Source: Candidatus Hydrogenedentota bacterium (lineage in GTDB: Bacteria > Hydrogenedentota > Hydrogenedentia > Hydrogenedentales > JAEUWI01). From it: 64,000 bases of DNA. Shown here in pieces: positions 13,586 through 62,101 of the stretch (positions within the stretch are counted from its first letter, which is position 1; each line of letters opens with the position of its first letter). A program made the position numbers and the translations under genes. The stretch is taken from assembly GCA_016791475.1 (NCBI GenBank), contig JAEUWI010000019.1, forward strand, positions 1 through 64,000, in the 5' to 3' direction. The notes beneath the pieces were generated by a model, which was not told the origin of the DNA, did no database searches, and was given only the letters and a program-made list of their open reading frames with translations.

Positions 13586-13652
13586 GATCGATCCCTTTGT
13601 GTAAGCTCTCTCTACATTTCGCATGCGGCCCATGGCTGTCGTAGGGGGCCGA

Positions 13653-13733
13653 ATGGGTCTTATGGGTCTTATGGGTCTTATGGGTCTTATGGGTCGTATG
13701 GGTCGTATGGGTCGTATGGGTCGTATGGGTTCG
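13653..13733. repeat. 9-nt tandem array (ATGGGTCTT / ATGGGTCGT)
   Basis: Four copies of ATGGGTCTT are followed by four of ATGGGTCGT and one variant, all in exact 9-nt phase. The complement, AAGACCCAT, belongs to the GACC-core family seen at 35362 and 4750. The clean 4+4 split suggests recent block expansion. It sits between the VWA/GATase gene and the TPR gene and adds a spurious Pro-Ile-Arg run to the upstream frame of the latter. Confidence 0.95.
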
Positions 13734-13741
13734 ATGAACGG

Positions 13742-13848
13742 CATCCTTCACCCTTCACCCTTCACCCTTCACCCTTCACCCTTCATCCTTCATCCTTCAT
13801 CCTTCATCCTTCATCATTCATCCTTCATCCTTCATCCTTCATCCTTCA
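13742..13848. repeat. 7-nt tandem array (CATCCTT / CACCCTT) overlapping a stop codon
   Basis: About fifteen 7-nt units: CATCCTT, five CACCCTT, then mostly CATCCTT with one CATCATT. On the minus strand the unit reads TGAAGGA or TGAAGGG, and the first TGA of the array is the stop codon of the VWA/GATase gene (13846-13848). No inverted partner is present here. Confidence 0.95.
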
Positions 13849-60359: not shown

Positions 60360-60830
60360 CTATTCCGGCAGCGACTTGAAACCCACATACCATACCAGAA
60401 CCGCGACAAGCTGCCACGAAACAAAAAGTATTCCCCACAACGCAAGTATTCCCCCAACTCGCTCAAAGATGTCCGGTGACGGTAGGCCGAGTAACAGCAA
60501 CAATAGATCGTTGGCGGCCGCCGATATGAGCAGGATAATGGACAGGTAAAAACCAATGCGAGATTGGCGGTACGCCCACGCCACACCAAGCAGGGGAACT
60601 TGGATCAGGGGGAGAATTGATGCCCCCGCGCCACCACCCCAACCGTGGCCAGCCCCGGTCAATCCAGCCCCCATCAGACCCAGGACACAGCTATACGTGA
60701 AGCCAACCACGGCTAGTATCAGGGCGCGGGGCCAGATGGCTCCCGGCCAGACTTTGTATTCATCGGGATTGTAGGCTGCGTTTTTTGCCGGGGAATCTAA
60801 TTCGGGGGCCTCATCATTCGCAGGATTCAT
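60360..60830 (-). CDS. Four-helix membrane protein, unknown function
   Basis: A 156-residue protein from the ATG at 60830 (AAGG 11 nt upstream); ATG at 60848 is an alternative. Four hydrophobic stretches: ALILAVVGFTYSCVLGLMGAG, ASILPLIQVPLLGVAWAY, IGFYLSIILLISAAANDLLLLLLG and LALWGILFVSWQLVAVLVWYV. A soluble N-terminus (NPANDEAPELDSPAKN) lies first. No family recognised. It is isolated between catabolic genes and has no obvious partner. Confidence 0.55.
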   Translation of the reverse strand: MNPANDEAPELDSPAKNAAYNPDEYKVWPGAIWPRALILAVVGFTYSCVLGLMGAGLTGAGHGWGGGAGASILPLIQVPLLGVAWAYRQSRIGFYLSIILLISAAANDLLLLLLGLPSPDIFERVGGILALWGILFVSWQLVAVLVWYVGFKSLPE

Positions 60831-61049
60831 ATTATCGCGTGCCTTCATAAAGTATGGTGGGGGCCTTTTGTCGCTTATCAAATGATAGTTGAAATTGCTC
60901 CGGCAATTCGAGCATTCGAGTTGGTACCGCATTCGAAAACATCCTCACCCCTGCGTTATCCTGTTGCCCGGCACGATACCGCGTCACCAGGCGGCTCGAG
61001 TTACCCTGAGCACCGTACCCCGTCGCTTAACGTGACCAGGAAAATCCGC

Positions 61050-61187
61050 ATGCAGAAGATCGCTCGCCCCCGTATGGACCGCCGCCAATTTTTTGCTTAC
61101 GCCGCCCTGGCCTCGGCGGGGCTTGTAACCGTTTCGGCCCGCGCCGATGCCCGGTCGAATATGCTCATCATCCCCACCGACCAGTAG
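61050..61187 (+). pseudogene. Sulfatase N-terminal remnant with Tat signal
   Basis: From the ATG at 61050 (AGGAAAA upstream) a twin-arginine signal peptide (DRRQFFAYAALASAGLVTVSA) leads to SNMLIIPTDQ, the first strand and metal Asp of a sulfatase. It then meets TAG at 61185, where sulfatases usually have Gln (TDQQWAG); the next codons do read WAG before similarity is lost. The rest of the gene is deleted. The start signals survive, so a 45-residue exported peptide may still be made. Confidence 0.6.
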
Positions 61188-61255: not shown

Positions 61256-61292
61256 GGCTACTCTAAAACCGCACGGGCGAGCGGCTCGCCCG
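61256..61292 (+). promoter_or_regulatory. Promoter and hairpin before the first small protein
   Basis: TTGTAG (61235-61240) and, 18 nt on, TACTCT within GGCTACTCT (61256-61264). A CGGGCGAG/CTCGCCCG hairpin follows at 61273-61292, in the leader of the small gene. Confidence 0.4.
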
Positions 61293-61329: not shown

Positions 61330-61461
61330 ATGGCTGACAAAGAACTCGAAAAGGAAATGAAGGCGCTCGCGAAGGAGATTATGGACTACACGAATAAGAA
61401 GCTTGCCCAGATGGAAAAGAATCTGGTTGCCTATATCGACAAGAAGGCCGATGGCAAGTAA
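61330..61461 (+). CDS. Small Lys/Glu-rich helical protein, copy 1
   Basis: A 43-residue protein, ATG at 61330 with AAAGGGG upstream. It reads as one amphipathic helix (MADKELEKEMKALAKEIMDY...), with hydrophobic residues every three to four positions and a Lys-rich C-terminus. A paralogue lies 104 nt downstream with the same start (MA[D/N]KELEKE[M/L]K) and end (DKK..GK). Two related copies, each with a ribosome binding site, argue that this is a real gene. It contains no Cys or Trp and no signal peptide. It could be a nucleoid or RNA-associated protein, a small oligomerising helix or an antitoxin; none is supported directly. Confidence 0.7.
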   Translation: MADKELEKEMKALAKEIMDYTNKKLAQMEKNLVAYIDKKADGK

Positions 61462-61565
61462 GGGACGCGTCGATCCATCGTTGCTCACGACGGCTTCACG
61501 TTGGCGTCGCGCCATGCGTGCAGGCGGAGGCCGCTGTCCCGAAATCTAGATCGAAAGGCATTGTG

Positions 61566-61694
61566 ATGGCCAACAAAGAACTGGAAAAAGAGCTCAAAGA
61601 ATTGTTTAAAGAGATCATGGATATGGTCAACACCAAGTCCGCCACGTTAGAGAAGAGTATCGTCAAGTACGCAGACAAAAAGCTCGGCAAATAG
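61566..61694 (+). CDS. Small Lys/Glu-rich helical protein, copy 2
   Basis: A 42-residue paralogue of the protein at 61330; ATG at 61566 with GAAAGG upstream. It aligns with one gap near the C-terminus: MANKELEKELKELFKEIMD, then a more variable middle, then KYADKKLGK. About half the residues are identical. Codon differences between the copies show the duplication is not very recent, so both have been kept under selection. They are likely co-transcribed. A short hairpin (TGGGC/GCCCA, 61703-61717) follows. Confidence 0.7.
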   Translation: MANKELEKELKELFKEIMDMVNTKSATLEKSIVKYADKKLGK

Positions 61695-62101
61695 GAAACG
61701 CTGGGCGCACAGCCCACAGATCCGTACTTTTCGGCAACGGACTCACGCGCGCCTCCCCCTGGGCGAAGTATGCTTTTCGTGTCCGGCTGTCGGACGTGTC
61801 CCCGGAAGTTTGTTTCATGCTGGCGGCAAACGAAGATTTCCCAGTTCCGGCGGGCGAGGCCCTCTTTCCTTGCCGGGCCCAATTCTTGATTCCCAGTGCC
61901 ATTTCTGGCAAAGTATGGCGGTTTTCCCGCCGTGACTGGCGAGCTATACGTGGGCCCAACCACGGTGAAGCGGCGGGTCCTTTCCCAATGCCGTTCGCCT
62001 GGGCGCCCTGAACATTTGCTGATTTGATCCCTTTTTTTACCGTGGGATGGCAATCAGGCGGCCCCCCTGCCGCCCGTGCGCCCTCCCGGAGGCCGTGACC
62101 C
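61695..62101. other. Intergenic region before gcvT
   Basis: 407 nt with several small hairpins (61703-61717; GTCCG/CGGAC near 61780; GGCGG/CCGCC near 61920) and a T7 tract at about 62031. None of the conserved blocks of a glycine riboswitch could be recognised. No gene was seen. Confidence 0.6.

Follow-up and report, generated by a model that had tools for sequence, protein, structure and literature searches.

The window analysed here, a stretch of 64,000 nucleotides from a Candidatus Hydrogenedentota bacterium, carries a tandem pair of small genes, A1 and B1, and a second, diverged A-B pair is present elsewhere in the same genome. Comparison of the two pairs indicates that these genes are coding, translated and clearly kept by selection, and the family appears so far to be restricted to one species among the genomes searched. 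The best explanation, to which we give a probability of about one half, is that A and B are cytosolic, one-species small proteins that form a right-handed A-B coiled-coil bundle, were duplicated as a unit and have an accessory role. The genes and the elements around them are:

61275..61291, plus strand: GC-rich dyad GGGCGAGCGGCTCGCCC, located in the leader of A1 and similar to a dyad at C9:17716-17732
61330..61461, plus strand: A1, 43 aa, MADKELEKEMKALAKEIMDYTNKKLAQMEKNLVAYIDKKADGK; open reading frame (ORF) with SD-like AAGGGG, a 91% identical paralogue and an AlphaFold2 (AF2) helix
61462..61565, plus strand: A1-B1 spacer, 104 bases (100 bases in the C9 pair)
61566..61694, plus strand: B1, 42 aa, MANKELEKELKELFKEIMDMVNTKSATLEKSIVKYADKKLGK; ORF with SD-like AAAGG, a 62% identical paralogue and an AF2 helix
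61922-62011, plus strand: ZTP/ZMP riboswitch RF01750, 57.5 bits (gathering threshold 39), directly 5' of gcvT (62102)
C9:17770-17901, strand and order as in the window pair: A2, 91% identical to A1
C9:18002-18130, strand and order as in the window pair: B2, 62% identical to B1

The sequence-only reading had described a tandem paralogous pair of 43 and 42 residues with ribosome binding sites, and both ORFs are indeed present, each with its SD-like site about 8 bases 5' of the ATG. A1 and B1 are 64% identical as proteins and were the sole non-overlapping similar pair at E<=1e-4 when 423 window ORFs of 30-80 aa were compared. The genome (G000, 7.7 Mb in 529 contigs) holds four copies and no others, and none of its other proteins resembles A or B. 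The second pair, which spans C9:17770-18130, has the order and strand of the window pair on C19.

A1 and A2 differ by 23 base changes, distributed over the three codon positions as 3/1/19 (p=1.7e-6), and their codons show 16 synonymous versus 4 replacement differences. The 4 amino-acid changes compare with a mean of 16.3 and a minimum of 8 in a neutral simulation of 20,000 runs. Because the changes sit at third positions, the genes are judged to be translated and constrained. The A1/B1 comparison gives 14/12/28 (p=0.004) and 16 amino-acid changes where about 31 would be expected without constraint; by itself this suggests modest constraint. The earlier proposal that both genes are kept by selection is therefore modestly supported by A1/B1 and decisively by the A1/A2 codon pattern. 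A lack of homologues anywhere had also been named as one part of what would refute the family. None turned up beyond this genome although selection on the genes is clear, so that part was wrong as a test.

The two subunits differ in their rate of change. B1 and B2 show changes of 12/9/21 per codon position (p=0.019) with 16 replacements; the replacement rate is thus 4/43 for A versus 16/42 for B (Fisher p=0.002), at a similar third-position divergence (19/43 and 21/42, respectively). On these counts A is evidently held under constraint, while B varies, either drifting or diversifying. The alignment also orders the events: since A1 and A2 have in common the residues MADKELEKEMKALAKE...KKA-GK, and B1 and B2 have in common EKELKEL...EKS..KYADKKL-(G/S)K plus a one-residue deletion, tandem duplication evidently gave A and B first, and the whole A-B unit was copied to a second place later.

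A four-sequence profile was run against 67 further phylum genomes, three of them from the same genus and another three from the family, and against about 320 genomes more; it gave no convincing A/B match. Degenerate-pattern scans of GTDB contigs and IMG/VR viral contigs were empty, as were tblastn searches of 50,697 phage records and 72,556 plasmids, sequence scans for so short a protein being liable to miss distant relatives. With family membership defined as a score above the curated cut-off (Pfam, NCBIfam) or a clearly significant E-value, the best E-values in Pfam, NCBIfam, PHROGs and PADLOC (0.007-0.27) were below cut-off or at chance level; PDB sequences gave chance-level scores only, and literature searches returned nothing on the A/B family. 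Hits at E 0.0008-0.01 were rejected: most of them fall within longer frames, and a search of several hundred genomes is expected to yield hits of this level; the best of these, in G173, is inside a longer frame with a signal-like look. The notion of an undescribed small-protein family is borne out by the lack of a match in the genomes, Pfam, NCBIfam, PHROGs, PADLOC, PDB and viral contigs searched. At both loci the flanking genes align over kilobases with those of genus relatives, which shows the contigs to be native.

In the window, the pair has on one side an unknown membrane-type ORF (minus strand, 60360-60932) and on the other the ZTP riboswitch. The riboswitch-gcvT block is conserved in same-genus genomes, and the common block begins at about 61881-61903, 3' of B1. 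A link to gcvT was rejected, given that the second pair is found at another place and that the relatives' conserved block begins only after B1. Just before the pair, on the plus strand (61051-61187), there is the start of an ORF with a twin-arginine-type signal (MDRRQFFAYAALASAGLVTVSARADARSNMLIIPTDQ), cut short by a stop; it seems to be what remains of the N-terminal part of a sulfatase-like gene, the Pfam score not being significant. The distance from rpsB to gcvT is about 33 kb here (27619-62102), with glycosidase and sulfatase genes in between, whereas in G002 and G003 rpsB directly precedes gcvT and points the other way; the stretch 27619-62102 is plastic. At about 13600-13800 of the window and about 4400-4650 of L012, one strand has short repeats in tandem that encode (PIR)n.

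The dyads in the A1 and A2 leaders are at the same distance 5' of the gene and may represent a candidate operator or leader hairpin, albeit weakly, the pattern having been defined after both leaders were inspected. As a genome-wide operator the dyad was not supported, since the 11 other fetched sites lie in, or abut, long ORFs. No conserved RNA structure was found upstream of A, and the predicted RNA fold loses its stem in A2. The spacers of the C19 and C9 pairs are alike only in the final bases before B (TCGAAAGGCA). The A1-B1 spacer scan found no sigma-70-like promoter on the plus strand and no terminator, these promoter and terminator scans being uninformative. Codon adaptation is 0.53-0.73 versus 0.49-0.75 in the reference genes, one of which was in the wrong frame, and does not clearly indicate high expression.

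At the second locus, about 2.3 kb with a Bro-N gene and the A-B pair separates a DHDPS-family gene from a GFO/IDH/MocA oxidoreductase gene. In the same-genus genome G001, which lacks the insertion, about 170 bases lie between the aligned parts of these two genes. This comparison places the C9 pair in accessory DNA, and gain is likelier than loss because all relatives searched are without the genes. Two different dispersed repeats flank the insertion (L012:8504-8641, equal to C9:16504-16641, and L012:10291-10555, equal to C9:18291-18555), together having some 50 matches in the genome. The Bro-N domain gene (DinD-like, L012:8753-9610) is 87% identical to a copy elsewhere in G001 and was not found in G002, G003 or G005. 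The neighbours of the two pairs differ: gcvT at C19 versus the GFO/IDH/MocA oxidoreductase at C9.

AF2 predicted one continuous helix for each protein, at residues 2-40 of A1 (pLDDT 92) and 2-39 of B1 (pLDDT 93), and many short K/E-rich peptides give single AF2 helices. The best hydrophobic angle is 95-96 degrees in all four proteins, with amphipathicity at P<=0.003 (Eisenberg scale). Hydrophobic residues are at positions 6, 10, 13, 17, 21, 25, 28, 32, 36 and 40, a spacing of 4-3-4-4, and align in the columns 6/21/36, 10/25/40, 13/28, 17/32 and 18/33; positions 8/23/38 and 15/30 are almost all lysine. The period in all four proteins is thus 15 residues, or 3.75 per turn. Among simulated helices of equal composition and moment, an angle of 96 degrees or less arose in 0.1% of heptad (102.9), 0.6% of standard (100) and 7.5% of hendecad (98.2) helices, where the four sequences are not independent and hold only 2.5 repeats, and a heptad with one stutter is equivalent on paper. 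The 15-residue period appears to mark a right-handed coiled coil, and not a leucine zipper or membrane helix. Mean hydrophobicity is -0.2 to -0.3, charged residues make up 40-48%, net charge is +1 or +2 with the charges mixed, and no signal or membrane segment is evident by composition in A or B. The sequence-only reading was therefore partly right: in addition to selection and an undescribed family, its amphipathic helix agrees with the single AF2 helices and the hydrophobic periodicity, and its self-assembly is favoured, as a prediction, by the 15-residue period; its alternatives of binding to nucleic acid or to a membrane are not supported, in view, respectively, of the low, mixed charge and of the negative hydrophobicity and many charged residues. 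It had missed the second pair, the C9 insertion and the one-species range.

These results suggest the following: A1 and B1 would each be one amphipathic, cytosolic helix of 37-39 residues; A and B most likely fold only upon association; the helices, with hydrophobic residues repeating every 15, would line up laterally to form a right-handed coiled-coil bundle that is probably tetrameric; A and B probably mix in one bundle, because they would be made together; and the role might be that of a small accessory protein, either of the assembly or of the adaptor type. Neither profile nor structure libraries linked the proteins to a known oligomerisation domain. The more specific version, in which A and B are free-standing microproteins of a one-species family, and a constrained A and a fast-changing B form mixed right-handed bundles duplicated as a unit on accessory DNA, is put forward only tentatively.

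Two alternatives are live. It is conceivable, at rather long odds, that A and B are microprotein-type regulators, each helix docking into the bundle of a larger coiled-coil host partner and blocking or bridging it. Consistent with this, each protein is predicted as one short helix bearing a lone hydrophobic stripe, without any further domain, and the strong constraint on A would suit a fixed partner surface; however, the genome has no A/B-like proteins beyond the four copies, and since the neighbours differ at the two loci, no partner is indicated. Slightly less probable still, the pair might be carried by a mobile or phage-derived element and serve that element, for instance as a small accessory in structure, anti-defence or DNA metabolism. 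The roughly 2.3-kb C9 insertion between genes adjacent in G001, the dispersed repeats on both sides and the absence of the family from all relatives are in line with this, but phage records, plasmids, viral contigs, PHROGs and PADLOC gave 0 matches, the neighbours of both pairs included nothing recognised as an integrase or transposase, and G001 has a Bro-N gene elsewhere without the pair.

Two further readings are unlikely. Leaderless two-peptide bacteriocins consist of two tandem peptides without a leader, a layout that two tandem leaderless peptides of about 43 residues fit. A bacteriocin or similar membrane-active pair is nevertheless improbable: such peptides are cationic and hydrophobic and have adjacent export or immunity genes, whereas A and B have negative mean hydrophobicity, a near-balanced charge and 40-48% charged residues, and neither an exporter nor an immunity gene adjoins both pairs (the neighbours being gcvT, DHDPS, GFO/IDH/MocA and Bro-N). 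Least credible of all is that the ORFs are untranslated and their similarity is that of a recent DNA repeat. The failure to find homologues outside the genome would suit such a repeat, but the changes sit at third codon positions, and in alignments of C19 with C9 the spacer (z=1.2) and downstream flank (z=-1.1) are not above shuffles, the upstream region being only slightly so (z=2.3).

For the preferred coiled-coil bundle, the VASP tetramerization domain, which is about 40-45 residues long, offers a comparison: it too has one helix with hydrophobic residues every 15, a design likeness of period and not homology. As cited in PMC4721544, this domain is a right-handed coiled coil with a 15-residue repeat (Kuhnel et al. 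2004). That repeat, at 3.75 residues per turn, was found in all four A/B proteins, heptad and 100-degree helices being unlikely and hendecads, at 7.5%, still conceivable. VASP differs in that its domain ends a large animal protein, whereas A and B are whole, bacterial proteins; no such chain was among the PDB profile hits up to E=5, and there was no Pfam match. The GnsA/GnsB-type proteins (PDB 4xo1 and 4xo2) are likewise small, helical and bacterial, but score at chance level to A/B (E=0.25). Orphan bacterial small proteins are likewise short, confined to a single genome and without domain match; they are usually dismissed, as a single short ORF cannot be proven to be a gene. Most such orphans occur alone and are difficult to establish as genes, whereas A and B are present in four copies, two by two, with direct evidence of selection, and judged from the codon comparisons the case for a gene is, for an orphan, unusually strong. 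Thanks to the duplicated pair, coding is proven with no need of expression data, and all searched relatives are without the genes, making this a clean case for study of how new small proteins arise and persist; if the bundle prediction is true, protein designers would also gain from it a natural right-handed coiled coil of very small size.
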